From NCBI RefSeq assembly GCF_004115975.1, contig NZ_SDDZ01000003.1, positions 186,001 through 250,000 on the forward strand: a DNA stretch of 64,000 bases. Reading direction: 5' to 3'. This DNA comes from Gelidibacter gilvus. Lineage in GTDB: Bacteria > Bacteroidota > Bacteroidia > Flavobacteriales > Flavobacteriaceae. Positions 31,528 to 48,340 of the stretch are shown here, one piece after another. Below the pieces are notes generated by a model. It made no database searches. It was not told the origin of the DNA and saw nothing but the letters and a program-made list of their open reading frames with translations. The position numbers were made by a program, and so were the translations under genes. Position 1 is the first letter of the stretch; every line of letters begins with the position of its first letter.

Positions 31528-31531
31528 TAAC

Positions 31532-31555
31532 AAGCCTCATTTTGAGGCTTTTTTA
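31532..31555 (+). terminator. Terminator between prfA and pyrF, touching the pyrF start
   Basis: AAGCCTCA-TTT-TGAGGCTT followed by TTTTT. The T-run ends about 5 nt before the pyrF ATG (31560), so pyrF can only be reached by read-through or a start site inside the structure. Confidence 0.82.
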
Positions 31556-31559
31556 TGGT

Positions 31560-32378
31560 ATGACAACACCACAACTTATTGAGCAAATCAGACTAAAGAA
31601 ATCTTTTCTATGTATTGGATTAGATGTCGATTTGAGCAAAATCCCAGAACACCTTCTCAAAGAAGAAGATCCTATTTTTGCATTTAACAAAGCTATCATT
31701 GACGCCACGCACCAGTTATGTGTGGCTTACAAACCCAATACGGCGTTTTATGAAGCTTATGGATTAAAGGGCTGGAAATCTCTGGAAAGAACGATTCAAT
31801 ATCTCAATCAAAAACATCCTGAAATTTTCACTATTGCCGATGCCAAACGCGGCGATATTGGAAATACCAGCAGCATGTATGCGAAAGCGTTTTTTGAAGA
31901 CTTAGGCTTTGACAGTGTTACCGTTGCCCCATATATGGGAAAGGATTCTGTTGAGCCATTTTTGGAGTTTAAGGAAAAACATACCATTCTTTTGGCCTTG
32001 ACTTCCAATGAAGGAGCTTTTGATTTTCAAACAAAAACAATCGATGGCAAAGAAGTGTATAAGCACGTTCTGGAAACTTCAAAAACCTGGAAGAATTCCG
32101 AAAACCTTATGTATGTTGTTGGAGCCACAAAAGCGGAATATTTAGCCGATATCCGCAGTATCATACCAAACAGTTTTTTGTTGGTTCCAGGTGTTGGGGC
32201 GCAAGGTGGTAATCTTCAAGATGTTTGCAAATATGGAATGAACAACTCAGTGGGGCTTTTGATCAACTCATCAAGAGGAATTATCTATGCATCAAACGGA
32301 AAGGATTTTGCTGAAGTTTCTGCCGAAAAAGCAAGGGAATTACAGCAGGAAATGGCCACTATTTTAGACGTGTATTAA
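31560..32378 (+). CDS. pyrF: Orotidine-5'-phosphate decarboxylase
   Basis: 272 residues, the longer type found in Bacteroidota, mycobacteria and Myxococcus. Last step of UMP synthesis. Catalytic [11 protein letters not shown] motif, [11 protein letters not shown] near the N-terminus, and [11 protein letters not shown] for phosphate binding. ATG 31560 gives the family N-terminus ([10 protein letters not shown]); the upstream ATG at 31542 would lie inside the terminator stem. Confidence 0.95.
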
Positions 32379-32477
32379 TGTTTTAAGCTTCTGGTTCTGA
32401 AGCACCTAAGAACTCAATAATATGTTAGGTTTTAAACCGAACTTTACTTGGCGTCTTAGCGCCTCTGCGAGGAACAA

Positions 32478-33281
32478 ATGAAAGATCAACTCCATAGACA
32501 TATCGTATTAGATCAAACTCCTAAGCGGATCATCTCCTTGGTTCCTTCACAAACCGAACTGTTGGTAGATTTAGGATTGGAATCTTCAATTGTAGGAATT
32601 ACCAAATTCTGTGTGCACCCAATTCATTTAAAAGAAGAAAAAGTCGTTGTTGGTGGTACAAAACATGTCCATTTTAATAAAATAAAAGACTTGAAACCTG
32701 ATATTATCCTGTGCAATAAAGAAGAAAACACTAAAGAGATGATTCAGGAATTGGAAAAAATAGCCACTGTACATATCAGTGACATTTATACAATAGAAGA
32801 TACCCTCGAATTAATCGAATTATATGGACACCTGTTCTTAAAGAAAGATGCCGCTATTGAAATTATAAAAGAGATCTCTAAAAAGAAATTTGAGTTTGAG
32901 GATTTTATCAAAGATAAACCAAAAAGAACGGCCGCTTATTTTATTTGGAAAGAACCGTGGATGGTCGCGGCAAGACATAATTTTATAGACGAATTATTGC
33001 GCCTAAATGGGTTTGAGAATTATTATGTACAGTTCAGTCGGTATCCAGAAGTTGTACTCGACGCAACACTTCCGGAAAACTCAGAACTTGTCCTGCTCTC
33101 AAGCGAGCCATTCCCATTCAAAGGAAAGCACATCCAACACATCAAACCATTCTTTCCAAACGCCACTATTCTTGTGGTGGATGGTGAAATGTTTTCCTGG
33201 TATGGATCGCGATTATTGAAAGCGTTTGATTATTTTAAAACGCTGCATCAACATCAGTGGTCTCAGAATTCTTTAAGTTGA
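32478..33281 (+). CDS. BtuF-like helical-backbone metal/corrinoid receptor without a signal peptide
   Basis: 267 residues: two Rossmann-like lobes with a long central helix, as in class III periplasmic binding proteins (KRIISLVPSQTELLVDLGLE, VVVGGTKHVHFNKIKDLKPD, AAYFIWKEPWMVAARHNFIDELL). Homologues such as BtuF bind vitamin B12. There is no signal peptide or lipobox, so this copy is predicted cytoplasmic unless an unseen start exists. Two B12 enzymes (nrdJ, IcmF) lie within a few kb, but the ligand is inferred only. Its 3' end overlaps the convergent gene by 47 nt. Confidence 0.78.
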   Translation: MKDQLHRHIVLDQTPKRIISLVPSQTELLVDLGLESSIVGITKFCVHPIHLKEEKVVVGGTKHVHFNKIKDLKPDIILCNKEENTKEMIQELEKIATVHISDIYTIEDTLELIELYGHLFLKKDAAIEIIKEISKKKFEFEDFIKDKPKRTAAYFIWKEPWMVAARHNFIDELLRLNGFENYYVQFSRYPEVVLDATLPENSELVLLSSEPFPFKGKHIQHIKPFFPNATILVVDGEMFSWYGSRLLKAFDYFKTLHQHQWSQNSLS

Positions 33282-33462
33282 GGATGATCTTTCTCAATTT
33301 GGAAGCTTCATGGTATAAAAAGTCACTCAAACTGGCGTCTGATTGTAACAGATTATAGGCTTCTTCAGTAAATTTAATGTAGTTTTTTTCTACTTCTTTT
33401 AAGTTCAAGACTTCGTTGAGGCCAAACTTAACTTTTCCAACTTTGCAATTATGTGTATTCAT
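33235..33462 (-). CDS. Small helical protein, Lacal_2735-like (copy 1)
   Basis: 75 residues. The core EKNYIKFTEEAYNLLQSDAS, then ASKLRKIILNL matches the 65-residue neighbour at 33548 (KRYKQLIEQAYNVRQTDHALSD ... KAIKLLHKLNRL), so the two are paralogues; both resemble the short Lacal_2735 family of Flavobacteriaceae. Function unknown. The last 47 nt overlap the convergent BtuF-like gene. Confidence 0.58.
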   Translation of the reverse strand: MNTHNCKVGKVKFGLNEVLNLKEVEKNYIKFTEEAYNLLQSDASLSDFLYHEASKLRKIILNLKNSETTDVDAAF

Positions 33463-33547
33463 AGGTTATTAGGATATGATCTTAATCTATAAATACGAGT
33501 GATAAGTCGCTAAGGACGTGCAGATAAAGTTAAAATTTTTATAATAT

Positions 33548-33745
33548 TTAATTCAGCCTTTTTATGGGCTCTCTGTTTAAATATTTCAAACGATTCAGTT
33601 TGTGTAAAAGCTTTATGGCTTTATACTCTGAGATATCACTTAAGGCATGATCCGTTTGACGAACGTTGTAGGCTTGTTCAATAAGTTGCTTATACCGTTT
33701 TTGTAGTTTGAGTTGGTGCGATTTAATTTCCAATGAAGTTTTCAT
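33548..33745 (-). CDS. Small helical protein, Lacal_2735-like (copy 2)
   Basis: 65 residues from ATG 33745 (MKTSLEIKSHQLKLQKRYKQ), preferred over the upstream in-frame start because the extension is hydrophobic and unrelated. Highly charged helical hairpin. Paralogue of the gene at 33235; function unknown. Confidence 0.6.
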   Translation of the reverse strand: MKTSLEIKSHQLKLQKRYKQLIEQAYNVRQTDHALSDISEYKAIKLLHKLNRLKYLNREPIKRLN

Positions 33746-33822
33746 GACTACCACAGTTTGAAAGTTAAATATATCTAAAATACACTTAACGAACAAGTTA
33801 AATTTTTAAAAATATTCATAAA

Positions 33823-33856
33823 AAAAGTCGATGGATAATTCCCATCGACTTTTGAT
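33823..33856 (-). terminator. Terminator after the DUF4197 gene
   Basis: AAAAGTCGATGG-(7)-CCATCGACTTTT, a perfect 12-bp stem, T-rich on both strands; on the minus strand it follows the DUF4197 stop by ~45 nt. Confidence 0.85.
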
Positions 33857-33900
33857 CATATCAATCATGTTCAAATCACATGCTTTATGTCTTTTTGAAA

Positions 33901-34614
33901 TTATTTTGAGTCTTGTAGTGCAAAAACCCGTCTTAAAAGATCTGTGCTTCTTGCGCCTACTTTATTTCTGATTTCTTTTTCTTCAACCGCAATCATCGTA
34001 AACACTCCTTTTAGGGCTTGTTCGGTGACGTAATCGGTCAAATCCGGATTGACATTGCTGGTAAAGGGAATGGCATTATATCTGTTGATCAGGTTTTGCC
34101 AAATTTGATCTGCCCCAACTTTTGAAAACGAATTATTGATTACAGGATGGAATTTTGCATATAAAGATGTGTGGGTCTTATTGTTAAGATATTGCGTCGC
34201 AGCATCATCCGTTCCCAAAAGAATATTTCGTGCATCGGCAAAAGTAATGTCCTTAACTGCATTCACGAAAATTGGTGTGGCTTCCTTTACGGCATCTTCC
34301 GCAGCTCTGTTGAGCACTTTTAAGCCTTCATCAGCAAGACTTCCAAGGCCAATATCACGCAACCCTTTGTCTACTTTTTGTAATTCAGCCGGTAAAAGGA
34401 TTTTAACAAGGTCATTTCCATAAAAACCATCGGTTTTGGTCAGTTTGGTCACTTGTTTATCAATACCTAAATCCAGAGCTTGTCTTAGACCAGCTGCAAT
34501 ATCAGTATTGCTAAGCACACCTCCGCCTTGTGGCAAAGAATCAACAACGCTCTGTAACTCTGCACAGGAATATAGTGTAAACAACGTAAGTAAAACAACG
34601 AATGACTTTTTCAT
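33901..34614 (-). CDS. DUF4197 exported lipoprotein-like protein
   Basis: 237 residues; signal with a lipobox-like LYSCAE (Cys17), so probably a lipoprotein. The rest is DUF4197: DIAAGLRQALDLGIDKQVTK, KILLPAELQKVDKGLRDIGLG and FADARNILLGTDDAATQYL. Helical, function unknown. A minus-strand TATTTTTG (34644-34637) lies 22 nt upstream. Confidence 0.85.
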   Translation of the reverse strand: MKKSFVVLLTLFTLYSCAELQSVVDSLPQGGGVLSNTDIAAGLRQALDLGIDKQVTKLTKTDGFYGNDLVKILLPAELQKVDKGLRDIGLGSLADEGLKVLNRAAEDAVKEATPIFVNAVKDITFADARNILLGTDDAATQYLNNKTHTSLYAKFHPVINNSFSKVGADQIWQNLINRYNAIPFTSNVNPDLTDYVTEQALKGVFTMIAVEEKEIRNKVGARSTDLLRRVFALQDSK

Positions 34615-34749
34615 ATATAATTAATTTTAGTGAGTTCAAAAATATATCAAATAGTTTAGATAATAAATGTTCGGGCAAGTTTTTGAAATAAAAACCAAGT
34701 TTTCCGCTTTGTCAGTAAGCGCGCATGTAAATCTAAACTATTCACAATA

Positions 34750-34783
34750 TTGGGTGACTTCTTTTATAAAATCTGTAAATTTG
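34750..34783 (+). promoter_or_regulatory. Promoter of icmF
   Basis: TTG (34750-34752), 23-nt spacer, TAAATTTG (34776-34783), 27 nt before the ATG. Confidence 0.6.
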
Positions 34784-34810
34784 CAGGACGTATAAATTCA
34801 ATTTTTAACA

Positions 34811-37800
34811 ATGATACAAGCACCACCATACAAACCAAAACATAAAGTTAGAATAGTAACCGCCGCTTCTCTTTTTGATGGCCATGATGCCGCTATCAAT
34901 ATTATGCGACGCATCATCCAATCTACAGGCGTTGAGGTCATTCATTTAGGCCATGATAGAAGTGTGGAGGAAGTGGTCAATACGGCCATTCAAGAAGATG
35001 TCAATGCCATTGCAATAACCTCCTATCAAGGTGGACATAATGAGTATTTCAAATACATGTATGACCTGTTAAAGGAAAAAGGGGCGGAACATATCAAAAT
35101 TTTTGGTGGTGGCGGCGGTGTCATTCTTCCATCAGAAATCAAGGAATTGATGGCTTATGGCATTACTAGAATTTATGCCCCAGATGACGGTAGAGAAATG
35201 GGTTTGCAAGGGATGATCAATGATTTGGTGGAAACTTCTGATTATGCTATTGGGGATGTGCTGGATGTTGAATTAAATGATTTAAAGAAAAAGAATCCAA
35301 AAGCTATTGCAAGAATCATCTCTTCAGCGGAAAACTATCCTGAAGTTGCAGAAGCTGTTTTAGATAAGATTCACGTTAAAAATAAAACTTCCAAAACACC
35401 AGTTCTTGGGATTACCGGAACTGGAGGTGCGGGAAAATCTTCTTTGGTGGATGAATTGGTACGTCGGTTTTTAATTGATTTTCCGGAGAAAACAGTGGCT
35501 TTGGTCTCTGTTGATCCTTCAAAACGAAAAACTGGCGGGGCTTTACTTGGAGACCGTATCCGAATGAACGCCATCAACAACCCTCGCGTGTATATGCGTA
35601 GTTTGGCAACACGTCAATCCAATCTTGCACTTTCTAAATATGTCAATGAAGCGATTCAAGTTTTAAAAGCCGCAGAATATGATTTAATCATTATCGAAAC
35701 ATCGGGAATAGGCCAGTCGGATACGGAAATCATTGAGCATTCTGATGTGTCCTTATACGTTATGACGCCAGAATTTGGTGCCGCAACCCAATTGGAAAAG
35801 ATTGACATGCTCGATTTTGCCGATTTGGTGGCCATCAACAAATTTGATAAACGTGGTTCTTTGGATGCGTTGCGCGATGTGAAAAAGCAATACGTACGTA
35901 ACCATCTCTTATGGGATGTAGATCAAAAGGATTTGCCGGTTTTTGGAACGATTGCTTCGCAATTTAATGATCCAGGAATGAATACGCTGTATAAGGCAAT
36001 CATGGATAAAATTGTTGAAATAACAAAAGCCGATTTAAAATCGACTTTTACGATTTCTGATGAAATGAGCGAAAAGATTTTTGTGATTCCTCCGGCAAGA
36101 ACACGCTACCTCTCTGAAATAGCAGAAAGTAATCGCGCTTATGATAAAACGGCCACTGAACAAGTTGAAGTGGCACAAAAGCTTTATGGGATTTATAAAA
36201 CACTCGAATCGGTTGTTGGGCAAACCCCAGAATTGGACAAAGCTGGCATAGATAGTAAATCGATCATTCCAACCGATGACGAAAACAAGGATTTCATAAA
36301 ACTGTTGGTGGGCGAGTTTGATCGTGTCAAATTGAATCTTGATCCCTACAATTGGGAAGTCATCACCGGTTGGGATGAAAAAGTCAATACCTACAAAAAC
36401 CCTATCTATTCGTTTAAAGTTAGAGGAAAGGAAATAAAGATTGAAACACATACAGAATCTCTTTCACATTTACAGATTCCTAAAGTTGCCCTTCCGAAAT
36501 ACCAAGCTTGGGGTGATATTTTAAAATGGATACTGCAGGAGAATGTACCGGGCGAATTTCCTTTTACTTCAGGACTGTATCCTTTTAAAAGAACAGGTGA
36601 AGATCCGGCGCGTATGTTTGCAGGCGAAGGCGGTCCTGAACGGACGAATCGTCGCTTTCATTATGTGAGCATGGGATTACCGGCAAAACGTTTGTCAACT
36701 GCATTTGATAGCGTTACACTTTACGGAAATGATCCCGATCATCGACCTGATATTTATGGTAAGATTGGAAATGCCGGGGTGAGCATCTGTTGCTTGGATG
36801 ATGCCAAAAAACTTTATTCCGGTTTTAACCTGTCGCATCCTATGACCTCTGTAAGTATGACCATCAACGGCCCTGCGCCAATGTTGTTGGGCTTTTTTAT
36901 GAATGCTGCCATTGATCAGCAATGTGAGTTGTACATCAAGGAAAACGGACTTGAAAAGGAAGTGGAGGCCAAAATTGCCAAAATCTATAAAGACAAAGGT
37001 GTGGAACGCCCAAGTTATAAAGGCGAATTGCCAGAGAGTAATAACGGATTGGGATTGATGCTTTTAGGTGTTACAGGCGATCAGGTATTGCCGAATGATG
37101 TTTACCAAGATATCAAAACCAAAACAATTGCCCAAGTACGTGGTACTGTTCAAGCCGATATCTTAAAAGAAGATCAAGCACAGAATACCTGTATTTTTTC
37201 AACAGAATTTGCATTGCGATTGATGGGTGATGTGCAGGAATATTTCATTGAGAACAATGTGCGCAACTTCTATTCTGTATCTATTTCAGGATATCATATT
37301 GCCGAAGCGGGAGCCAATCCTATTACGCAATTGGCATTGACTTTATCCAACGGATTTACTTACGTGGAGTATTATTTAAGCCGAGGGATGGACATCAATA
37401 AATTTGGTCCAAACTTATCCTTCTTTTTCTCCAACGGTATCGATCCTGAATATGCAGTGATTGGTCGTGTGGCCCGTAAGATTTGGGCTAAGGCGATGAA
37501 AAACAAATATGGCGCCGATCCGAGAGCACAAATGTTGAAATATCACATTCAAACTTCCGGGCGTAGTTTGCACGCGCAGGAGATTGATTTTAATGATATA
37601 AGAACCACACTTCAGGCATTGTATGCGATATATGATAATTGTAATTCGCTGCACACAAATGCCTATGACGAAGCCATTACGACACCTACCGAAGAATCCG
37701 TGAGACGCGCCATGGCCATTCAATTGATTATCAATAAGGAATTAGGACTGGCTAAGAACGAAAACCCGATCCAAGGCTCGTTCATCATCGAAGAATTGAC

Positions 37801-38233
37801 CGATTTGGTAGAAGAAGCAGTGTTGTTGGAATTTGATCGTATTACCGAAAGAGGAGGTGTTCTAGGGGCTATGGAAACCATGTACCAACGCAGTAAGATT
37901 CAGGAAGAAAGCTTGTATTACGAAACTTTAAAACACAATGGCGAATTTCCGATCATTGGTGTGAATACTTTTTTAAGCAGTCAAGGATCACCAACGATTA
38001 TTCCAAAGGAAGTTATTAGAGCAACGGAAGAAGAAAAGCAATTTCAAATCCAAACACTTGAAAATCTTCACAAAGGAAATGATATTGAAGACTTATTAAA
38101 AGACTTACAGCACAAAGCCATTCATAACGAGAATATTTTTGAGGCTTTGATGGAAGTATGTAAAGTAAGTTCATTGGGTCAAATCACCGAAGCCTTATTT
38201 GAAGTAGGCGGGCAGTACAGACGAAATATGTAA
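34811..38233 (+). CDS. icmF: Fused isobutyryl-CoA mutase (IcmF), B12-dependent
   Basis: 1140 residues in the IcmF order: B12-binding domain (about 10-145; DGHD at 23-26 supplies the cobalt-ligand His25, and GGGGG at 99-103), MeaI-type G-protein chaperone (about 195-430; P-loop GTGGAGKS 203-210), linker, and mutase TIM barrel (about 560-1140; [38 protein letters not shown]). It interconverts isobutyryl- and n-butyryl-CoA; some homologues also act on pivalyl- or isovaleryl-CoA, and substrate specificity cannot be fixed here. The fused GTPase loads and protects the cofactor. Monocistronic. Confidence 0.93.
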
Positions 38234-38238
38234 GCAGC

Positions 38239-38645
38239 GAACCAAGTTTTCCTTTTCGGAAAACTTGTGTGAAAAGTTTACCCTGAGCTCAGCCGAAGGG
38301 CTTATCCCGCTTTTGGCGGGATCTTTTGATGCTTAGCTGATACTTGCTGAACCAAGTTTTCCTTTTCGGAAAACGTGTGTGAAAAGTTTACCCTGAGCGT
38401 AGCCGAAGGGCTTATCCCGCTTTTTAGCGGGATTTTTTGATGCTTAGCTGATACTTGCTGAACCATATTTTCCTTTTCGGAAAACTTGTGTGAAAAGTTT
38501 ACCCTGAGCGTAGCCGAAGGGCTTATCCCGCTTTTTAGCGGGATCTTTTAATGTCAATCTGAGACTTGTTGAACCACATTTTCCTTTTCGGAAAACGTGT
38601 GTGAAAAGTTTACCCTGAGCGTAGCTGAAGGGCTTATCCCGTTTT
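38239..38645. repeat. Four tandem ~110-bp repeats, each with three hairpin-like elements
   Basis: Units start at 38239, 38349, 38460 and 38571 (period 110-111). Each has TTTTCC-TTTT-CGGAAAAC, then CCCTGAGCGTAGCCGAAGGG, then ATCCCGC-TTTTTA-GCGGGAT with a T-run; the last unit is cut short before the final stem. The third element looks like a rho-independent terminator, so IcmF transcripts meet several stops in a row. Units differ by only a few bases, so the expansion is recent. Confidence 0.9.
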
Positions 38646-38702
38646 AGGGTTAAAGGATTTAAGACATTCGTTTTTTTTCACATTTCTTAATCAAATAAAA
38701 TC

Positions 38703-38733
38703 ATCCTGAACATAAAACGTTCAGGATTTTTTG
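38703..38733 (+). terminator. Terminator-like hairpin after the repeat array
   Basis: ATCCTGAAC-ATAAAAC-GTTCAGGAT followed by TTTTTT. Confidence 0.75.
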
Positions 38734-38823
38734 ATTATAGTCTTCACCATTCATCGTCTTTTTTTGTAAGTCTGTGCTTATTAGGTAGTTAAATTTGTAA
38801 AACAACTAATATGTCTTACCAAA

Positions 38824-38856
38824 TTGTGCTGTTATCATTTTTCAGGACTAGTTTTG
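38824..38856 (+). promoter_or_regulatory. Promoter of the 43-aa ORF
   Basis: TTG (38824-38826), 22-nt spacer, TAGTTTTG (38849-38856). A second -7-like box, TAAATTTG, lies at 38790-38797. Confidence 0.55.
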
Positions 38857-38905
38857 TAGAGTCGCTATTTACCTATTTAAGTATAACCTATAAAATGATT
38901 CAACT

Positions 38906-39037
38906 ATGGAAACTACACTTCGTTACAAGTTTACTAGACAATCCAAAAACTATTTTGAATGGTTGATCTACACTATCAAATCGGAAAAATATCATTTGGC
39001 AGAAAGCCAGATAGAGGGTTGGAATGGTTTTGATTAG
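38906..39037 (+). CDS. Small protein (43 aa), unknown
   Basis: 43 codons starting METTLRYKFTRQSKNYFEWL and ending SQIEGWNGFD. Basic, aromatic-rich N-terminal half, no signal peptide. Supported by a good promoter 50 nt upstream and a strong terminator 36 nt downstream; no homologue recognised. The gene could instead be a regulatory RNA of about 250 nt. Confidence 0.45.
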   Translation: METTLRYKFTRQSKNYFEWLIYTIKSEKYHLAESQIEGWNGFD

Positions 39038-39072
39038 TTTTTTTAATTAAATTTTTTAAGATAATTTTATTC

Positions 39073-39110
39073 AGACCTCACAGGTTTTTAAAACCTGTGA
39101 GGTCTTTTAT
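39073..39110 (+). terminator. Strong palindromic terminator
   Basis: AGACCTCACAGGTTTT and AAAACCTGTGAGGTCT form a near-perfect ~16-bp stem followed by TTTA. A related palindrome, AACCTGCAAGGTTT/AACCTTGTAGGTTT, occurs at 60464-60495. Confidence 0.8.
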
Positions 39111-39180
39111 ATTCAATAATCTGTATGATAATTTGGTCTTAAAAGAATCCAATGGGATATAAATAAATCCATCCACCAAT

Positions 39181-39402
39181 TTTTCGGTTAGAATAAAATT
39201 TTTGTCAAGTTTAATCGGGGCTTTTAAAACAACATCTTCAAAAATGATCCATCGCGCTGGTTTTGCAGATTTCGTCTGGAAAAGGTCATTACATGTCCAT
39301 ATTATTAGACAAAAGAAATCTATTCAAAACATTTTGAATCATATCGATGCAAATCCTGACAAATGGCATTAGGATCGTTTCTATTTGAATGTTTAAAAAA
39401 TT
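39181..39402 (+). pseudogene. Remnant of an IS200/RAYT-type (Y1) transposase
   Basis: In one frame from about 39181: LSSLIGAFKTTSSKMIHRAG, FADFVWKRSLHVHIIRQKKS, IQNILNHIDANPDKWH, an in-frame TAG at 39370, then DRFYLNV. This is the C-terminal part of a Transposase_17/RAYT protein (usual pattern: GAFKS...K, WQRSYHDHIIR, YI..NP.KW..D.FY). The N-terminal HUH and tyrosine regions are missing. A decayed fragment with no visible flanking ends. Confidence 0.72.
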
Positions 39403-39546
39403 CCAGTTGCGATATTATTTTAGGTAAAATCCAATTTAAAAATGGGTTTTGCTCAACTATTGATCAAAGCTTATAAAAAAGTATCAAAAAATGCATCTTT
39501 ATCCCTCTTTTCACGTCTATTAGATGAACCTTAAAATATATAGATC

Positions 39547-39648
39547 ATGAATAATAAAGAATGCACATGTAATTGTGACAGTTGTCATATGGGAAACTGC
39601 GCGGCATGTACCTGTGAAAATTGTACCTGTCAGAATTGCAACTGTTAA
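39547..39648 (+). CDS. Metallothionein-like cysteine-rich peptide (33 aa)
   Basis: 33 residues, 11 of them Cys plus one His: MNNKECTCNCDSCHMGNCAA followed by CTCENCTCQNCNC. Repeated CxC and CxxC spacing without other structure is what a metallothionein-like metal-binding peptide shows; it has no signal peptide, so it is cytoplasmic. It lies 79 nt upstream of a SigZ-type sigma factor whose C-terminus is also Cys-rich. No TAnnTTTG box is evident upstream. Metal binding is inferred from composition only. Confidence 0.72.
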   Translation: MNNKECTCNCDSCHMGNCAACTCENCTCQNCNC

Positions 39649-39673
39649 GCTTAGTTTAAAATGTTAATAATAG

Positions 39674-39717
39674 GAGTCTGTTTTTAGTAATTTTATACTA
39701 AAGTGGACTCTTTTTTA
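39674..39717 (+). terminator. Terminator/attenuator between the Cys-rich gene and sigZ
   Basis: Two-part stem: GAGTC (39674) with GACTC (39706) and TTTAGTA (39683) with TACTAAA (39696), followed by TTTTTT. It ends the Cys-rich transcript or attenuates read-through into sigZ, whose ATG is 11 nt further on. Confidence 0.7.
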
Positions 39718-39727
39718 ATGAGCTTTT

Positions 39728-40267
39728 ATGAAAACGAAAACCGTTTGGGATTTATACGCGCAAGACATTAAACATTTTATTTTAAGTAAGGTGAAAGATG
39801 GCGTTATAGCTGATGATTTGCTTCAAGAGACGTTTATCAAAGTCCACGTAAAATTGGATACTTTAAAAGATGATCGTAAATTAAAACCATGGGTATTCTC
39901 GATTGCCCGTTATACGGTCGTGGATTATTTTAGACAAAATAACCTTAGTTATCCAATTGAAGATAATGATATTATTGAAGAGCACACCAATTCTAATCAT
40001 ACCAGAGAGGATTGTTTGCATGGCATCATCAAATCATTACCAAAAAAATATAGAGATCCGTTAATTTTAGCAGATATACAAGGTTTGAAACAGGCTCAAA
40101 TTTCTGAGCAATTGGACCTGCCCTTGCCAACGGTGAAATCGCAGATTCAGCGTGCAAGAAAACTCGTTGCACAAGGTTTTGTGGAATGTTGTAATTTTAA
40201 GATCAACGATAATGGGTATTTGGTGGGCGAATTGCAAGAAAAGGAAAACTGTAAAATCTGCAATTAA
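39728..40267 (+). CDS. sigZ: ECF-type RNA polymerase sigma factor SigZ with Cys-rich C-terminus
   Basis: 179 residues. Region 2 (about 5-72; DDLLQETFIKVHVKLDTL, KPWVFSIARYTVVDYFR) and region 4 (about 95-150; LPKKYRDPLILADIQGL, LPLPTVKSQIQRARKLV) are typical of ECF factors. The extension of ~30 residues, FVECCNFKINDNGYLVGELQ then EKENCKICN, has Cys154-Cys155 and Cys175-x2-Cys178, the SigZ hallmark and a likely metal or redox sensor. No anti-sigma factor is adjacent. Its position next to a metallothionein-like gene suggests a metal- or thiol-responsive role. Confidence 0.85.
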   Translation: MKTKTVWDLYAQDIKHFILSKVKDGVIADDLLQETFIKVHVKLDTLKDDRKLKPWVFSIARYTVVDYFRQNNLSYPIEDNDIIEEHTNSNHTREDCLHGIIKSLPKKYRDPLILADIQGLKQAQISEQLDLPLPTVKSQIQRARKLVAQGFVECCNFKINDNGYLVGELQEKENCKICN

Positions 40268-40362
40268 GCAATTTTATTTTTTTCTTGAAGATTCTTATTG
40301 GAATGTGGCCTGTATATCGAAAACTCGGAATTTGGAATTTGTTTTGTTTGGAATTTAAAATA

Positions 40363-40758
40363 TTACAAAGTCATCATCCAAGTGTGTTGCAATCTTCTAA
40401 ATTTCCTTAACTCTCTTCTTAATATAGGAAGATATTCCCTACCATTACTATGGCTTTTTTCTAATCGTTTGCAATTTTTATAGAGTAAATTGGTCAAACG
40501 TTCCAAAGAGGCAATATGCTTGTATTTTTTATCAGAATGACGTTCCATTTCTGCATTGACAATTTCAGGAGCCAAAGACGTGGATTGTTGTACAATATCA
40601 CCAGAAAAATAAATATCTGTATCTTCAGAACCGTCTGGTTTTAAGTATGCTAAGTCTTGATTCAAATATGTGGAAATACTTCTGGATAGAATAATGATTT
40701 CTATCGCCTTTTTATAAAGCGGCATTTCGGGTAGGTGAGATGGAATTGGGTACGACAT
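40363..40758 (-). CDS. Helical-bundle protein (paralogue of 41381 gene)
   Basis: 131 residues from ATG 40758 (MSYPIPSHLPEMPLYKKAIE); the upstream frame would cross the divergent regulatory region. All-helical, resembling four-helix-bundle/S23-type proteins. It aligns over its length with the protein at 41381 (LPVFQKAREIMDLVGSI), including REYLPILRRELRKFRRLQHTW against TEYLDILRNEVEEFRVLFAEW. Divergent from the AsnC gene. Function unknown. Confidence 0.7.
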   Translation of the reverse strand: MSYPIPSHLPEMPLYKKAIEIIILSRSISTYLNQDLAYLKPDGSEDTDIYFSGDIVQQSTSLAPEIVNAEMERHSDKKYKHIASLERLTNLLYKNCKRLEKSHSNGREYLPILRRELRKFRRLQHTWMMTL

Positions 40759-40810
40759 GTTTGTTAAAAGCTTTTTATCAAATTTAGTGACAAATTCACT
40801 GGTATTATAA

Positions 40811-40838
40811 TTGATTTTAAAGTAAAACACTATATTTG
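40811..40838 (+). promoter_or_regulatory. Promoter of the Lrp/AsnC regulator gene
   Basis: TTG (40811-40813), 17-nt spacer, TATATTTG (40831-40838), 37 nt before the ATG. An AT-rich stretch with TTTAATAATTAAA follows it and could host autoregulation. Confidence 0.75.
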
Positions 40839-40875
40839 CTTTAATAATTAAAGTTTTATAGTTAATTTTCTTTAA

Positions 40876-41319
40876 ATGAGTATAGATTCGCTTAATTGGA
40901 AGATTCTGAAGTGTTTACAAAACGGAGCACGTCAGTCTAACGCTGAAATTGGAAGACAGGTGGGAATAAGTTCTCCTGCAGTCTCTGAACGTATTAGAAA
41001 GATGGAAGATGCCGGAATTATTCAGGGCTATCATGCCTTTGTTTCTCCCTTTGAAGCCGGTTATCAGTTAAAGGCGATAATTACCTTAAGGGCTTTTATG
41101 GGCATGCTGAAACCGTTTTTGGAAAAAGTAAAAACTTATGATGAGGTTTTGAATTGCTACAGAATAACAGGTAATGAAAACATTGTTATGGAAGTGGTGC
41201 TTAAGAACCAGAAACATTTAGAAAGTTTTATTGACCAGCTCATTGTTTATGGTGAAACTAAAACGCAGATTGTTTTATCTCATGTGATAAAATACAATGA
41301 AGTGCGACCAATCAATTAA
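40876..41319 (+). CDS. Lrp/AsnC-family transcriptional regulator
   Basis: 147 residues: N-terminal HTH (SLNWKILKCLQNGARQSNAE, then QVGISSPAVSERIRKMEDAG) and a C-terminal RAM ligand-binding domain (GYQLKAIITLRAFMG, VLNCYRITGNENIVMEVVLK). Such regulators respond to amino acids. It sits between two paralogous helical-protein genes on the opposite strand. Confidence 0.92.
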   Translation: MSIDSLNWKILKCLQNGARQSNAEIGRQVGISSPAVSERIRKMEDAGIIQGYHAFVSPFEAGYQLKAIITLRAFMGMLKPFLEKVKTYDEVLNCYRITGNENIVMEVVLKNQKHLESFIDQLIVYGETKTQIVLSHVIKYNEVRPIN

Positions 41320-41380
41320 TCCATTGACGTAAGATTTGACAGACACGTTCCTTAATTTTAAATAAGCTTTTATCTGTTAT

Positions 41381-41890
41381 TTAAAGGTCGTCAAATCCGT
41401 CGAAATCATCAAAATTGAAAGGAATATCGTCGTCAGGATCCACGTCGTCATAGTTAACTCCTGGAGGATTAAAAAGTCCCCATCGGTCAATAATATAGTT
41501 CCAGCAATCAAAGGTTTTAACCCATTCAGCAAATAATACCCTGAATTCTTCTACCTCATTTCTTAAGATATCTAAATATTCAGTATCAGGATATCCATGC
41601 ATCTGTAAGCCCCTCGCATCAGTTATCAACTCCATTGCTGCTTTTCTAATAATAGTGGCATTTTCCATTCTAATGTCGTAGAGCATATCTTCAGACGACG
41701 CACCAGCTATTTTAGCAGGAATGATGGAGGCGTTCATGCCCATGTATTTGAGATTGTGTTGCATCATTTCGACCTCAATAGGGTCACCAAATTCAATATC
41801 GGTTTTTTCAACGGACTCGATAATGGAGCCTACAAGGTCCATGATTTCGCGTGCCTTTTGGAATACAGGCAGTTTTTCCCACTGTTCCAT
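41381..41890 (-). CDS. Helical-bundle protein with acidic tail
   Basis: 169 residues. The first ~130 are helical and paralogous to the 40363 product; the C-terminus is very acidic (DDVDPDDDIPFNFDDFDGFD). It begins 3 nt after the stop of ypdA, so they form an operon. Function unknown. Confidence 0.75.
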   Translation of the reverse strand: MEQWEKLPVFQKAREIMDLVGSIIESVEKTDIEFGDPIEVEMMQHNLKYMGMNASIIPAKIAGASSEDMLYDIRMENATIIRKAAMELITDARGLQMHGYPDTEYLDILRNEVEEFRVLFAEWVKTFDCWNYIIDRWGLFNPPGVNYDDVDPDDDIPFNFDDFDGFDDL

Positions 41891-41893
41891 GCG

Positions 41894-42874
41894 TTAATCT
41901 TTTTTAATGTTTGTGCTTTCGATATGTTCAGCAATCATTTTGGCATGAATCCTAGAGTTTTCAATAAACCATTTATGGGTTTCCATGCCTCCACAAATAA
42001 CCCCAGCTAAATATAATCCTATTATATTAGTTTCCATGGTGTCTGGATTATATTGGGGTAAGCGGGCACTATCGTTGGATAGTTTGATGCCTGAATCGAT
42101 TAAGAATTTGAAATTAGGCATGTAGCCCGTTAGTGCCACAACAAAATCATTAGGAAATGTGATTTCACCATCTGGCGTATTAATGGTTATTTCCTTTTCT
42201 TCAATTTTAACGACCTGTGAATTGTAGTAAGCCTTTATGCTTCCTTCTTTAATTCGATTGATAATATCTGGTTTTACCCAATATTTAACACGCTCTCCAA
42301 TTTCAGAACCTCTGATGACCATGGTTACATGGCCACCTTTTCGCCATATCTCAAGGGCTGCATCTACGGATGAATTGCTTGCCCCAACTACAACCACATT
42401 CTGCATGGCATAAGGATGTGCTTCATCATAATAATGGGTGACTTTTGGTAAATCTTCTCCTGGAACCTTTAGTAATGTTGGAATATCATAAAACCCAGAT
42501 GCAATTATCACTTTTTCGACGCGATATTCTGTTTTGGAGGAAGTGACCACAAAATGCTCTTCCAATTTCTTAACGGTCATTACTTCTTCATATAAATGAA
42601 TGTTCAATGCGTTGGCCGTAGCCACACGTCTATAATATTCAAGTGCTTCGTCTCTATTGGGTTTTGGATTGTTGCTAATAAATGGGATCTCATCAATTTC
42701 AAGCTTTTCAGAAGTTGAAAAAAAGGTCATGTTTTTTGGATAGTTGAACAAAGAATTGGTCAGAGCACCTTTTTCAATAACTACATAGTCCCAATTTCTT
42801 TTTTTGCATTCCAATGCACAGGCAATACCAATGGGACCTGCGCCAATAATTAATACTTTATATGTGCTTGTCAT
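41894..42874 (-). CDS. ypdA: YpdA-type FAD/NADPH reductase (bacilliredoxin reductase-like)
   Basis: 326 residues. FAD-binding GAGPIG (11-16) and a second Rossmann motif for NADPH (VVVVGASNSSVDAALEIWR); the sequence follows YpdA/Bdr rather than thioredoxin reductase, since no CxxC is present: KNMTFFSTSEKLEIDEIPF, GYMPNFKFL, LAGVICGGMETHKWFIENSR. It is thought to reduce bacillithiol disulfide, and Bacteroidota make bacillithiol. First gene of a two-gene operon. Confidence 0.9.
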   Translation of the reverse strand: MTSTYKVLIIGAGPIGIACALECKKRNWDYVVIEKGALTNSLFNYPKNMTFFSTSEKLEIDEIPFISNNPKPNRDEALEYYRRVATANALNIHLYEEVMTVKKLEEHFVVTSSKTEYRVEKVIIASGFYDIPTLLKVPGEDLPKVTHYYDEAHPYAMQNVVVVGASNSSVDAALEIWRKGGHVTMVIRGSEIGERVKYWVKPDIINRIKEGSIKAYYNSQVVKIEEKEITINTPDGEITFPNDFVVALTGYMPNFKFLIDSGIKLSNDSARLPQYNPDTMETNIIGLYLAGVICGGMETHKWFIENSRIHAKMIAEHIESTNIKKD

Positions 42875-43043
42875 TTATTTACGTTTGTTTTTTGAGGTTT
42901 TTGAGTGTTGTTTATTTGTTTTCATGATTTCTAATTGTTGGAATTCTGAAACATCAACCTCTTATTTGTAAAAATACGGAATCGTCGAAATAAACGATGC
43001 TCATTAAGTTTAAATTGTATGTTTGTAAATCAATTACTTTTTT

Positions 43044-43646
43044 ATGAAAACGTTATACTCATTTTTGTTGGGATTCCTTTTCTTATGGAGCTGTGCCACG
43101 GATAAACAGCCTATTCAAGGCGAAACCGAATTTCAGAGAAACCTGAATGCAGAGTTTAAAGATGCTTCAAAATCGCCTTTAAAAAAGAAAGACAGGAGAG
43201 CCTTTAATGCCTTGGATTTTTTTAAAGTTGACTCGCTTTATGTTGTTCAGGCTACTTTTACGAAATCTGACGATGAAAAGCCTTTCCAAATGAAAACCAC
43301 AACGGATAGGCTTCTGACATATATTAAATATGGCGAAATCTCTTTTGATTTAAAAGATGAAACGCACACCTTAAGCGTTTACCAAGATCAGGATTTGATG
43401 AATGAAGATGGTTTTGAAGACTATTTGTTCTTGCCCTTTTTAGATGACACCAATGGCGATGAAACATATGGAGGTGGTCGTTACATCGACTTGCGTATTC
43501 CCGATGGCGATGTCATAACTATCGATTTCAATACGGCATATAATCCTTATTGCGCCTACAACGAGGCATACTCATGTCCGATCGTACCTCGTGAAAACTA
43601 TGTTGATGTTGAGGTTAAGGCGGGAGTTAAGTCGTTTGAGCCGTAA
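43044..43646 (+). CDS. DUF1684 lipoprotein
   Basis: 200 residues; lipobox-like FLWSCA (Cys17). DUF1684 signatures: YGGGRYIDLRIPDGD, IDFNTAYNPYCAYNEAYSC, then PIVPRENYVDVEVKAG. Beta-rich and of unknown function. A TATGTTTG -7 box (43018-43025) lies 18 nt upstream. Its 3' side is followed by a large tandem repeat array. Confidence 0.88.
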   Translation: MKTLYSFLLGFLFLWSCATDKQPIQGETEFQRNLNAEFKDASKSPLKKKDRRAFNALDFFKVDSLYVVQATFTKSDDEKPFQMKTTTDRLLTYIKYGEISFDLKDETHTLSVYQDQDLMNEDGFEDYLFLPFLDDTNGDETYGGGRYIDLRIPDGDVITIDFNTAYNPYCAYNEAYSCPIVPRENYVDVEVKAGVKSFEP

Positions 43647-43659
43647 GGAGGGGGGTGAG

Positions 43660-44816
43660 TGGGTAGTGTTCAGGCTTCAGTCAGCAGTCTTCAGTTTGAC
43701 AGCTGTTTTATGTGTGAGTTTTCTGTAGTAGTTTCTGCGCACATCTGCGAGATTTGCGGTAGATTATGATCTTGAGTAACTAATCTGTCTTTTAAAAAAC
43801 CTCCGTGAACCTCCGTGCCATCTCTATGAATCTCTGCGAAATAACTAGCCTAAACTTTTCACGACATGCATTCCAAAGAAAACTGATGAAAACTTAATAA
43901 CTTAAAGGGATTCAGTTCTTCAGTCAGCAGTATTCAGTTTGACGGCTGATTTATGTGTGAGTTTTCTGTAGTAGTTTCTGCGCGCATCTGTGCTATCTGT
44001 GGGAGATTTTTAACATGAGTAACTTAATTCATCTTAAAAAAAACCTCCGTGCCATCTCTGTGAATCTCTGCGAAACAACCAATCTCAACTTTTCACGACA
44101 TGCATTCCAAAGAAAATAGATGAAAACTCAATAACGTAAATGGATTCAGATCTTCAGTCTTCAGTAAGCAGTATTCGGTTTGACGGCTGATTTATGTGTG
44201 AGTTTTCTATAGTAGTTTCTGCGTACATCTGCGCTATCTGCGGGAAATTTTTAACATGAGTAACTAATTCATCTTTAAAATACCTCCGTGAATCTCCGTG
44301 CCATCTCTATGAATCTCTACGAAACAACCAATCTCAACTTTCCACGACATGCATTCCAAAGAAATCAGATGAAAACTTAATAACTTAAAGGGATTCAGTT
44401 CTTCAGTCAGCAGTCTTCAGTTTGACGGCTGATTTATGTGTGAGTTTTCTATAGAAGTTTCTGCGGGCATCTGCGCTATCTGCGGGAGATTTTTAACATG
44501 AGTAACTAATTCATCTTTAAAATACCTCCGTGAATCTCCGTGCCATCTCTATGAATCTCTACGAAACATCCAATCTCAACTTTTCACGACATGCATTCCA
44601 AAGAAAACAGATGAAAACTCAATAACCTAAATGGATTCAGTCTTCAGTAAGCAGTCTTCAGTTTGACGGCTGTTTTATGTGTGAGTTTTCTATAGTAGTT
44701 TCTGCGTACATCTGCGCTATCTGCGGGAGATTTTTAATATGAGTAACTAATTCATCATTAAAAAACCTCCGTGAACCTCCGTGCCATCTCTGTGAATCTC
44801 TGCGAAATAACCAATC
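43660..44816. repeat. Five tandem ~241-bp repeats carrying degenerate crcB 3' ends
   Basis: The landmark TTTATGTGTGAG recurs at 43707, 43950, 44191, 44433 and 44674 (spacing 241-243). Each unit has TCTTCAG/CAGCAG simple-repeat text, TTTGACGGCTG, CTGCG-type motifs, CCTCCGTGAA-type motifs and CTCTGCGAAA, then a 35-40-bp segment matching the end of crcB. On the minus strand that segment reads SVFFGMHVVKS-stop (stops at 44087, 44336 and 44577; altered near 43853), against AVFLGMYLVKS-stop in real crcB (stop 44819-44817). The last unit abuts crcB itself. Confidence 0.92.
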
Positions 44817-45185
44817 TCAACTTTTTACCAAATACATTCCTAAGAAAACAGCTAAAAAACCAACCACAAAACTCGCTATAGTATAGATTGCAAAGCTCAT
44901 GAAATCGCCCGATTTTAAAAAGACGTGATTCTCATAAGCAAAGGTCGAAAAGGTTGTAAAGCCACCACAAAAACCTGTGGCAAGAAATAAAATTTGATTT
45001 TGGGATAAGGTGTTGTTCTTTAATGCCAAACCTAAAATGATACCAATCAATAAACTTCCTAAAATGTTAGCAGCAAACGTACCGTAAGGAATACCAGTTG
45101 CAGGGCTATTGAGGTACTTTCCGATAATAAATCTCAAGACACTACCAAATCCACCTCCAATAAAAACTAACAGGAATTGTTTCAC
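44817..45185 (-). CDS. crcB: Fluoride ion exporter CrcB/Fluc
   Basis: 122 residues, four membrane helices. Fluc signatures: GGGFGSVLRFIIGKYL, TFAANILGSLLIGI with the conserved Asn, and FCGGFTTFSTFAYE with the Phe-box and central Na+ site. Forms a dimeric fluoride channel in the inner membrane. Start overlaps the upstream SRPBCC gene stop by 4 nt. No fluoride riboswitch was recognised. Its 3' end appears to have seeded the tandem array downstream. Confidence 0.94.
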   Translation of the reverse strand: MKQFLLVFIGGGFGSVLRFIIGKYLNSPATGIPYGTFAANILGSLLIGIILGLALKNNTLSQNQILFLATGFCGGFTTFSTFAYENHVFLKSGDFMSFAIYTIASFVVGFLAVFLGMYLVKS

Positions 45186-46138
45186 AAGGCTTCGGTGATT
45201 TCTTTAATAGGAATGTAGATTTCAGTAACCCAATGTGCAGGGTTTGGAAGGTTGGTAGGATCATTCTTATAAACCTCAAAAGGACTCATCTCTGAAGCTT
45301 CCAGATTCTGATCTTGAAGATATTTGTTGGCAGTTGCCCAAGCTTCTTTAAGATTGGAATAGTTGCCTTTAAGAGTCACTTTAACTGCTTTGGTGCGCTC
45401 CATAAAACCGCTAAGGACATTGCCATCCTCTGCACAAATGACCATGTCGCTTACTGGAATGGCGTTAGTCATGATAACATTACCATTGTCTGGGCTCCTT
45501 TCAATGTAAATTGTAAAAGGCATCCCGCTGGCAGTGATATTATGGGCATTCATAAATATCGTGATGTCTTCAAACTGTTTTTTCATGGCAGTACTTTTGT
45601 TGCTGCCTGTGGAAGAAATAGTTTTATACATGTAAAATCCTCCACCATATTCTGTAATGCCATCAATATTTATGGAATAGGTGGCCATGCTTTTTGCCAC
45701 CTTTTTATCGATACCTTCTAGATCTGTTTTAAATTGCTGTGAGAGTTCCTCTTCGTTGTCACCAAACAATGCGAATTTAGCCTTGGTCAGGAATGCTAAT
45801 TTATCTGCATCAAGCGTTCTTGTGACAGTAGTTGAGCCATCCTCATTGGACACAAAAGTCCATTTTAATTCTGATTTTTTGATGCGTTTACTTGTAAAGA
45901 TCTGGACTATGGAGTCGCTAGCAGTGGATTCCCCATTTTGCATGGTTTCTGATAGTTTCCAAAAGGAAGACCAATCCACATCAGTGGTGTCTGAAACAAT
46001 ATCGTAAACCACCGCTTTTGGAGCGTTTATAGTGGTACTTTCCGTTACTTCAAAATCATTGGGCTGAACAGCAACATAAATAGCCATTCCGATAAAAGCA
46101 ATTAACAGTAGAAATAAGAGGTATTTTAGAAATTTCAT
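45182..46138 (-). CDS. SRPBCC (START-like) plus GyrI-like effector-binding domain protein
   Basis: 318 residues: N-terminal membrane helix (about 3-23), SRPBCC/polyketide-cyclase-like domain (about 30-150; ESTTINAPKAVVYDIVSDTT) and a GyrI/AraC-effector-like domain (about 155-318; FTIYIERSPDNGNVIMTNAI). Membrane-anchored small-molecule-binding protein; ligand unknown. Minus-strand TATCTTTG (46168-46161) lies 22 nt upstream. Coupled to crcB. Confidence 0.78.
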   Translation of the reverse strand: MKFLKYLLFLLLIAFIGMAIYVAVQPNDFEVTESTTINAPKAVVYDIVSDTTDVDWSSFWKLSETMQNGESTASDSIVQIFTSKRIKKSELKWTFVSNEDGSTTVTRTLDADKLAFLTKAKFALFGDNEEELSQQFKTDLEGIDKKVAKSMATYSINIDGITEYGGGFYMYKTISSTGSNKSTAMKKQFEDITIFMNAHNITASGMPFTIYIERSPDNGNVIMTNAIPVSDMVICAEDGNVLSGFMERTKAVKVTLKGNYSNLKEAWATANKYLQDQNLEASEMSPFEVYKNDPTNLPNPAHWVTEIYIPIKEITEAL

Positions 46139-46230
46139 TGGGTGATTTTGTAGAGTTTATCAAAGATAGACAATTTTATAGTATCTTAATAAATATTACA
46201 TTTGTAGTATTAAAATTTAAAAATCAAGAA

Positions 46231-48282
46231 ATGAATTTAAAATCGATATTGGGGATTGCATTAGTAATGAGCTTAACTTTCTCCTGTAAAAACGAATCAA
46301 AAACAGACAAAAATTCGACAGCAGTTGCTGTTGAAGCAGAAAAAGATGTTAAGGCGTTTGATTATACCGTTGAGCAATTTGCCGACGTTAAAATTCTTCG
46401 CTACCAAATTCCTGGATGGGAGAATCTCACTTTAAAAGAACAAAAATTAGTCTATTATTTAACCCAAGCCGGATTAGCGGGGCGCGACATTATGTGGGAT
46501 CAAAACTACCGTCACAACCTCAAAATCAGGAAAGCATTGGAAAATGTCTATAGCAATTATGCCGGCGACACATCTTCTGAGGACTGGAAAGCTTTTGAAA
46601 CGTATTTAAAACGTGTTTGGTTTAGCAATGGTATTCATCACCATTATTCCAATGATAAACTAAAAGCAGAATTTTCACAGGACTATTTGAAATCTTTATT
46701 GACAGCCACCAATACGCAATTGGAAGGCGAGGCTTTTGATGTGATTTTTAATTCCCAGGATTCGAAGAAAATCAATCAAGCCAAAGGCGCGGACAATGTA
46801 GCGAAATCTGCTGTTAATTTCTATGGACCAAATGTGACCACTGCCGATGTGGTTCAATTCTACAAGAATAAAAAATCGCCTAATCCAGATAAACCCTTGT
46901 CTTTTGGGTTGAATTCTAAATTGGTAAAGGAAAACGGCGAATTAAAAGAATTGGTATATAAATCTGGTGGCTTATACGGCTCCGCTATTGATGAAATTGT
47001 GAAATGGTTGGAATTGGCTCAAGGTGTAGCTGAAAATCAAGAACAAGGTGACGCTTTGGGTCTTCTAATCCAATACTATAAAACCGGAGATTTGCAAACC
47101 TGGGATGATTATAATGTTGCATGGACTGCAGCCACTGCTGGAAACGTAGATTATATCAATGGTTTTATTGAAGTTTACAACGATCCAATTGGGTATAGAG
47201 GTTCTTATGAGAGCATCGTCCAAATCAATGATTTTGATATGTCACAGAAAATGAAAGTATTGTCTGATAACGCCCAATGGTTTGAAGACAATTCTCCATT
47301 AATGGATGAACATAAAAAGAAAAATGTGGTTGGTGTCACTTATAAAGTGGTTAACGTAGCTGGTGAAGCTGGAGATGCTTCTCCAAGCACACCAATTGGA
47401 GTGAATTTACCAAATGCCAATTGGATTAGAGCCGCGGTAGGAAGTAAATCGGTTTCTCTTGGAAATATTATCGAAGCTTATAATAATGCAGGGAGCGCAG
47501 GCAGATTACAGGAGTTTGTCAATGACGAAGAAGAGTTGCAATTGGAGCAGGAATATGGACAAGTTGCTAGTAAATTGCATACTGCTTTACATGAAGTGGT
47601 TGGTCATGCTTCAGGACAATTGAATCCTGGCGTAGGTGAAACCAAAGAAACACTTAAAAATTATGCGTCAACCTTAGAAGAAGGTCGTGCTGATTTAGTG
47701 GGTCTTTATTATCTGTACAATCCAAAATTACAAGAGCTTGGTTTGGTAGATGATTGGAAAAAAGTGGGGATGGCCGCATATAATAGCTATATCCGCAACG
47801 GATTAATGACCCAGTTGATCCGATTGAATTTGGGCGATAATGTTGAACAAGCTCATATGAGAAATAGACAATGGGTGAGTGCGTGGGTTTTTGATAAAGG
47901 TAAAAAAGATAATGTCATCGAAAAAGTGACTCGTGATGGGAAAACCTATTATAATATCAACGATTATGAAAAACTTCATGATCTTTTCGGACAATTACTT
48001 CGTGAAACCCAACGTATCAAATCTGAAGGTGATTATAAAGCGGTTGAAGCTTTGGTAGAAACTTACGGGGTTAAGGTAGATCAACCGTTACACAAAGAAA
48101 TTTTAGAAAGAAATGCACAATTTCCAGATGCACCTTACAGCGGATTTGTAAATCCTGTTTTGGTGCCAGATATGGATGACAATGGTGAGATTACTTCAAT
48201 AAAAGTGACCCAACCAGAATCCTTTCCAAGCCAAATGCTGGAGTATAGTAAAACACATAGTTTTTTGAAAGGAGAAAACTAA
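46231..48282 (+). CDS. M49-family dipeptidyl peptidase III-like zinc peptidase, lipoprotein
   Basis: 683 residues from ATG 46231, which starts a lipoprotein signal (MNLKSILGIALVMSLTFSC); the upstream extension covers the TACATTTG -7 box (46197-46204), so it is rejected. The M49 signature HEVVGH is at 454-459 (two zinc His plus catalytic Glu) and EEGRAD at 483-488 gives the third ligand. Removes dipeptides from N-termini. DPP III is usually cytosolic; the lipobox here suggests a periplasmic or membrane-anchored form, as in other Bacteroidota. Confidence 0.9.
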   Translation: MNLKSILGIALVMSLTFSCKNESKTDKNSTAVAVEAEKDVKAFDYTVEQFADVKILRYQIPGWENLTLKEQKLVYYLTQAGLAGRDIMWDQNYRHNLKIRKALENVYSNYAGDTSSEDWKAFETYLKRVWFSNGIHHHYSNDKLKAEFSQDYLKSLLTATNTQLEGEAFDVIFNSQDSKKINQAKGADNVAKSAVNFYGPNVTTADVVQFYKNKKSPNPDKPLSFGLNSKLVKENGELKELVYKSGGLYGSAIDEIVKWLELAQGVAENQEQGDALGLLIQYYKTGDLQTWDDYNVAWTAATAGNVDYINGFIEVYNDPIGYRGSYESIVQINDFDMSQKMKVLSDNAQWFEDNSPLMDEHKKKNVVGVTYKVVNVAGEAGDASPSTPIGVNLPNANWIRAAVGSKSVSLGNIIEAYNNAGSAGRLQEFVNDEEELQLEQEYGQVASKLHTALHEVVGHASGQLNPGVGETKETLKNYASTLEEGRADLVGLYYLYNPKLQELGLVDDWKKVGMAAYNSYIRNGLMTQLIRLNLGDNVEQAHMRNRQWVSAWVFDKGKKDNVIEKVTRDGKTYYNINDYEKLHDLFGQLLRETQRIKSEGDYKAVEALVETYGVKVDQPLHKEILERNAQFPDAPYSGFVNPVLVPDMDDNGEITSIKVTQPESFPSQMLEYSKTHSFLKGEN

Positions 48283-48307
48283 TTTTATAGCGTTATAATA
48301 TAAAGGA

Positions 48308-48340
48308 ACAAGCAGGATATTTTAAATGTCCTGCTTGCTC
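48308..48340 (+). terminator. Terminator after the M49 peptidase gene
   Basis: CAAGCAGGA-TATTTTAAATG-TCCTGCTTG then CTCTTTTT. Confidence 0.82.

Follow-up and report, generated by a model that had tools for sequence, protein, structure and literature searches.

In the window, by which we mean the whole 64,000-nt stretch of DNA analysed here, a small metallothionein-like peptide and a SigZ-like ECF sigma factor are encoded one after the other, and we consider it fairly probable, judging from sequence, that they form a two-gene, SigZ-dependent and autoregulated operon that would buffer metal without an anti-sigma factor. The window is part of a 4.63-Mb genome (G000), and the nearest named relatives of the sigma factor come from Gelidibacter (Flavobacteriaceae). 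The reading of a metal-buffering peptide that may be driven by SigZ is strengthened by the predicted promoter, by a sister clade with a variant peptide, and by arsenic-linked relatives of the sigma factor. The elements of the locus are as follows:

39492..39500, + strand: -35-type box TGCATCTTT of the predicted SigZ promoter, whose boxes are conserved and whose spacer bases vary
39514..39520, + strand: -10-type box CGTCTAT, 33 nt before the peptide ATG
39547..39648, + strand: metallothionein-like peptide gene, 33 aa with 11 Cys in the pattern C.C.C..C..G.C..C.C..C.C..C.C
39672..39716, + strand: covarying hairpin with a T-run between the peptide gene and sigZ, a putative terminator or attenuator
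39728..40267, + strand: SigZ-like ECF sigma gene, 179 aa with regions 2 and 4
39998..40015, + strand: codons of linker His91 to Cys96, invariant in 81/81 aligned sigma factors (the window plus 80 named relatives, all linked to an 11-Cys peptide)
40187..40192, + strand: codons of Cys154-Cys155, invariant in 81/81 of the same rows
40250..40261, + strand: codons of Cys175-x2-Cys178, present in 80/81 rows

The ORF list of the window places the peptide ORF 79 nt ahead of the sigma ORF, both on the + strand, with the hairpin and T-run in between. The first-pass annotation had described the peptide in the same terms (33 codons, 11 Cys, one His, 79 nt to the sigma gene), and our ORF check confirmed this description for the window, although the single His is replaced in relatives by Q, K, T, S and other residues. 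The Cys fraction of the peptide was 0.33, against 0.17 for the next among the 731 window ORFs of 20-60 aa and a top value of 0.24 in 20 first-order Markov windows; a chance Cys-rich ORF is ruled out by these comparisons. Aligning the 17 11-Cys sequences with three 14-Cys ones showed no change at any of the 11 Cys or at one Gly. The peptide matched no family at E up to 1 in Pfam and NCBIfam, and its sole structural match, a defensin at E 0.65, was taken as noise. Small, rich in Cys, and built of CxC and CxxC repeats at conserved spacing, it has the sequence traits by which metallothioneins are recognised, and we infer that it is metallothionein-like, i.e., a predicted metal binder. Comparison of the neighbouring ORFs with Pfam and NCBIfam revealed no anti-sigma gene beside the pair, in agreement with the earlier annotation, and no metal transporter was seen adjoining the pair in the window. 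Downstream lie an ORF on the - strand (40363-40767) without a significant family match and then an Lrp/AsnC regulator.

We also noticed two tandem arrays in the window. One (38239-38645; 111-nt unit, 3.7 copies, 92% matches) directly follows the mutase gene upstream of the operon. The other (43669-44858; 241-nt unit, about 4.9 copies, 88% matches) carries a similar short ORF within each copy and is flanked by a small lipoprotein-like ORF and a CrcB-like ORF, both named by eye.

The sigma protein scored above the cut-offs of PF04542 and PF08281, which identifies it as an ECF factor with regions 2 and 4 only. Its best-matching curated models, TIGR02959 and NF007215, are both SigZ models and align across nearly the whole protein, yet its scores (157.8 of 168.65 bits and 173.8 of 212 bits) fall short of both NCBIfam cut-offs, hence we call it SigZ-like, whereas it had previously been named SigZ outright. 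A fold search with the AlphaFold2 model (mean pLDDT 83.6, pTM 0.64; linker and tail least certain) matched ordinary ECF factors. The Cys-Cys and C-x2-C pairs that had been noticed in the C-terminus were found at 154-155 and at C175-x2-C178, and linker His91 and Cys96, absent from the first-pass annotation, add to them; the one row without C175 and C178 is a shortened reference protein (L133) whose DNA keeps both Cys. Because His91 and Cys96 in the linker are equally invariant, the C-terminal tail is probably not the whole sensor. In sigma factors linked to a 14-Cys peptide, the tail reads CC...G.L.G..x-C-x2-C, except in L163, where the last tail Cys is missing. Three tail Cys are found in some arsenic-linked members (L001, L170, and L178), and the L001 protein has no Cys at the C96 position.

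Following sigZ neighbours into other genomes, as had been suggested earlier, we show that the pair is conserved both among the closest relatives of the sigma factor and in a wider family sample. A lack of such linkage in related genomes, which had been named beforehand as a refutation, was not what we observed. A search of 148 relatives yielded 30 SigZ loci, of which 17 (the window included) have an adjacent 11-Cys peptide, three a 14-Cys variant, two another Cys-rich peptide, and eight none that was found. The 11-Cys peptide was present in 80/80 of the best of 462 confirmed named SigZ relatives, 51-97 nt ahead of the SigZ match, these best 80 being the nearest clade by construction. By profile search of an even sample of Flavobacteriaceae, the peptide was detected in 71 of 397 genomes, with SigZ 7-253 nt downstream on the same strand in 54/71. 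This was not so in the other 17, where no sigma-like match occurred around the peptide in the stretches examined; judging by these 17 genomes, a linked SigZ is not required for the peptide to work. The 65 best SigZ rows of the family sample comprise the 54 peptide-linked ones and 11 others, nine of which (L029, L161-L163, and L165-L169) have a 14-Cys peptide. No peptide was found at L164, which has the sigma factor, or at L160, where sigZ is broken and the promoter intact. Outside Flavobacteriaceae, the peptide was not found: the positives among class-level (4/395) and phylum-level (5/296) genomes all belong to this family, in draws that included few Flavobacteriaceae genomes and in which distant variants may escape.

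In three small genomes without a linked SigZ (L147, L148, and L156), the peptide gene adjoins one for a PqqB-like hydrolase, identified by eye in L148 and L156, and the L156 peptide has 12 Cys instead of 11. A cation-diffusion-facilitator gene lies near the peptide in L147 and, by eye, in L156, which fits a metal role without SigZ.

A midpoint-rooted tree of 62 SigZ proteins, for which 14 of the 80 named loci were chosen by hand and L180 was left out (its SigZ is the same as that of L002), gathers the 31 11-Cys rows in one group (97/85). Its sister, at 98/92, is the 14-Cys clade, made up of 15 rows and L164; the arsenic-linked and CC-peptide SigZ fall outside both. Of 69 full-length loci in the 11-Cys clade, 66 have a mutase gene on the upstream side and 58 have Lrp on the downstream side; the linkage there is therefore partly inherited order. 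At 12/12 of the longer 14-Cys loci, none of these neighbours is present; the pair is thus kept together in other surroundings.

ECF promoters typically have CGTC in the -10 box, and we take TGCATCTTT-N13-CGTCTA upstream of the peptide gene to be the predicted SigZ promoter. The exact motif has a single site in the 4.63-Mb genome, which is the peptide locus (G000:C37:225492-225520). Among nine Gelidibacter genomes, six have one exact site, always at this locus, and three have none, their own site differing or not having matched. Of the 80 loci, 76 carry TGC[AG]TCTT together with a CGTCT-type box ahead of the peptide gene, and the spacer is exactly 13 nt long in 76/76; L068 and L089 are one base off, L138 has its site further upstream, and L131, with just 146 nt of upstream sequence, has none. 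When mismatches to TGCATCTTT-N12-14-CGTCTA were counted over the 81 linked loci (the window plus 80), 69 had zero, 11 had one, and one had seven. SigZ-less peptide loci had 3-7 mismatches in 16/16 cases (16 of 17 loci, L151 having been left out for an internal stop in the peptide and no open frame), and 405 shuffled stretches had 2-7, mostly 5-6. Because the promoter tracks SigZ (80/81 versus 0/16 with at most one mismatch), the peptide gene is probably SigZ-dependent, which lends support to the idea, already put forward in the first-pass annotation, that the small ORF depends on SigZ.

Three SigZ-less loci (L143, L144, and L154) have kept the ORF and Lrp as neighbours and show 3, 6, and 4 promoter mismatches, respectively, as expected if the site decays after SigZ loss. 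The peptide copy in L143 (L143:1406-1507), with just 8 Cys and a 3-mismatch promoter remnant, is possibly a case of such decay. The TAnnTTTG box, whose lack had been pointed out previously, is absent from the 120 nt upstream of the peptide; as a discriminator between groups it was discarded, being present in 3/81 linked and 3/16 SigZ-less loci. Upstream of the 14-Cys genes, [TA]GTATC-N16-xRTC, with boxes of the [TA]GTATC[TC] type, occurs in 15/15 loci, each match 26 nt long and spaced as in the 11-Cys loci; the pattern was drawn from the same 15 loci, but it matches only 10/7500 shuffled upstream stretches. A wide Gelidibacter regulon was rejected, since TGCATC-N15-17-CGTCTA has one site in G000 and its reversed control also one. 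The relaxed motif gave one off-locus site in G000, which we read as background, and missed the site of the window itself (its TTTA); overall, off-locus sites with relaxed motifs occurred at about the control rate.

The two-part hairpin with a T-run reported earlier between the genes held up in both folding and covariation. In the window, the folding energy between the two genes is -19.3 kcal/mol, which 200 dinucleotide shuffles place at z -3.33, and 94.8% of cells pair in the covariation set A5, made up of the window and those 43 of the 80 loci that were picked by eye for their bipartite stem. Changes on both sides occurred in 11/16 pairs (reached by 9/500 shuffles) and in 135 cells versus 39.7 in shuffles (0/500 reach 135), and sliding the partner by 1-3 columns lowered pairing to 34.5-52.0%. 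Against mononucleotide shuffles, z is under -2 for every one of the 81 intergenic stretches and for 14/15 stretches after the 14-Cys genes, with L177 showing no clear hairpin (z -0.3). No Rfam element was detected at gathering scores in window positions 30000-50000. The simplest role for the hairpin would be that of a terminator-like attenuator setting the peptide-to-SigZ ratio. Within A5, the sequence of the upper stem TTTTAGTAAnTTTATACTAAA (about 39681-39703) is nearly fixed and the lower stem covaries, as if the upper stem were also a candidate binding site.

Some SigZ factors beyond these two clades adjoin arsenic-related genes. Four loci (L173, L176, L178, and L180) have a SigZ-adjacent gene above the NCBIfam ArsM cut-off, one (L179) has a neighbour above the ArsI/CadI cut-off (117.8 of 116 bits), and the SigZ-adjacent methyltransferase of L170 has the same Pfam families as the ArsM genes; no partner gene was found for eight SigZ that lack an 11- or 14-Cys peptide. 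Related promoter boxes precede both arsM and sigZ in L173 and L176, arsM in L170 and L178 (with weaker -10 boxes), sigZ in L180, arsI in L179, and the CC-rich peptide in L182. Three such boxes occur in L181, before an ArsO-like gene (below cut-off), two CC-rich ORFs, and a PatB lyase gene, and none of the relaxed-pattern sites in that genome lies outside the SigZ locus. The two CC-rich ORFs of L181, which comes from another family, encode 51 and 26 aa ahead of sigZ (L181:3812-4091). Across 20 genomes picked for these clades, the relaxed motif returned 28 sites, of which 18 belong to SigZ loci and 10 do not, compared with 12 for the reversed control pattern; three of the 20 had no site, and the motif fails to pick up some known sites, that of the window included. 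All 3, 2, and 3 relaxed-motif sites in G797, G577, and G090, respectively, are at a SigZ locus.

For the window, we propose that SigZ would recognise TGCATC-N16-CGTCTA and thereby amplify its own operon. A thiophilic metal (Cu, Zn, Cd or As(III)) or the thiol state may switch SigZ without an anti-sigma factor, with Cys96/Cys154/Cys155/Cys175/Cys178, and perhaps His91, as the candidate sensing site. The hairpin would stop most transcripts after the peptide gene, yielding much peptide and little SigZ, and the peptide would sequester metal and so close a negative feedback loop. More tentatively, and short of calling it probable, we suggest that the SigZ family may comprise one-component sigma factors that work without an anti-sigma factor and detect thiophilic metals and metalloids. 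Their Cys sets would be lineage-specific (some arsenic-linked members have three Cys in the tail, and the metallothionein-linked ones have four there plus the linker His/Cys), and they would control micro-regulons of one to three adjacent operons from TGYRTC-N15/16-NGTC. The output in Flavobacteriaceae would then be a new metallothionein family that buffers the metal being read, a closed loop in about 0.8 kb.

The same Cys set could serve a thiol or electrophile switch. Disulfide stress, HOCl or aldehydes would then act on the SigZ Cys, which might or might not hold a structural Zn, and the peptide would be a thiol buffer or Zn reservoir. A PatB C-S lyase above cut-off at the CC-peptide locus L181, with a related box before its gene, agrees with such a switch, which we nevertheless regard as unlikely: genes for ArsM and ArsI, which handle metalloids, lie next to SigZ in other clades, and CorE, though of another group, is not induced by peroxide or diamide according to the available part of PMC3107203. 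More doubtful still is that the peptide is itself the anti-sigma factor, its apo- or metal-form binding SigZ or taking its metal as in a sigma/anti-sigma operon. No other anti-sigma gene is adjacent, and peptide and SigZ, both Cys-rich, are co-encoded in two clades; however, 17/71 peptide genomes have no linked SigZ, three SigZ-less loci adjoin a PqqB-like or cation-efflux gene (L147, and by eye L148 and L156), and invariant Cys spacing among otherwise variable residues suits metal clusters better than a protein interface. We attach very little probability to inherited synteny as the sole cause of the linkage, with SigZ controlling other genes and the peptide on its own promoter. The gene order kept around most 11-Cys loci would agree with it, but the 14-Cys pairs are located elsewhere (12/12), the promoter tracks SigZ presence, and in the nine Gelidibacter genomes no exact promoter site lies off-locus, with relaxed motifs giving off-locus sites near the control rate.

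The SigZ-dependent operon that we favour can be set beside known systems. SmtA and MymT are named bacterial metallothionein families; like them, the peptide is small and Cys-rich with CxC and CxxC repeats, but it matches none of the known bacterial metallothionein models in Pfam or NCBIfam. Known bacterial metallothioneins, SmtA and MymT among them, are under the repressors SmtB and RicR (PMC10141476, in part), whereas a co-encoded sigma factor is predicted here. When sigC expression was forced in M. tuberculosis, mymT rose only late, an effect that the authors put down to copper gain (PMC7924339, in part). CorE and CorE2 of Myxococcus xanthus (former ECF44) are, in the available parts of these sources, ECF factors that share with ours the lack of a linked anti-sigma factor, Cys in both the C-terminal extension and the sigma2-sigma4 linker, and metal-handling targets (here predicted). 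Metal switches CorE, which lacks an anti-sigma factor, through a Cys-rich C-terminal domain with four Cys (181, 184, 192, and 194; PMC3107203, in part). Here, H91-x4-C96 stands in place of the CXC linker motif (PMC3107203 and PMC8999054, both in part) and CC-x19-C-x2-C in place of the four-Cys tail spacing (PMC3107203, in part), and the predicted target is a metallothionein-like peptide, whereas those of CorE are ATPases and oxidases (PMC3107203 and PMC8999054, in part). Because the CXC linker and the Cys spacing differ, we do not file the SigZ-like factor as CorE, though its residues make it CorE-like in principle. For SigZ of B. subtilis, no function is given in the available part of PMC10141391.

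Control of a metallothionein by a co-encoded sigma factor was not reported in the open-access literature searched, and no open-access paper was found to name both 'sigZ' and 'metallothionein', absences that carry little weight within that scope; open-access papers naming 'sigZ' and 'arsenic' were unrelated, judged by their titles. If the predictions hold, a co-encoded sigma factor in place of a repressor would add a mode of metallothionein control, and the peptide would add a metallothionein-like family, confined to Flavobacteriaceae within the genomes sampled. The target, promoter and candidate sensor site of a SigZ-like factor can here be read from sequence and are testable in culturable marine bacteria. 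The conservation of the pair and its promoter in many marine bacteria suggests an unrecognised route of metal sensing and buffering.
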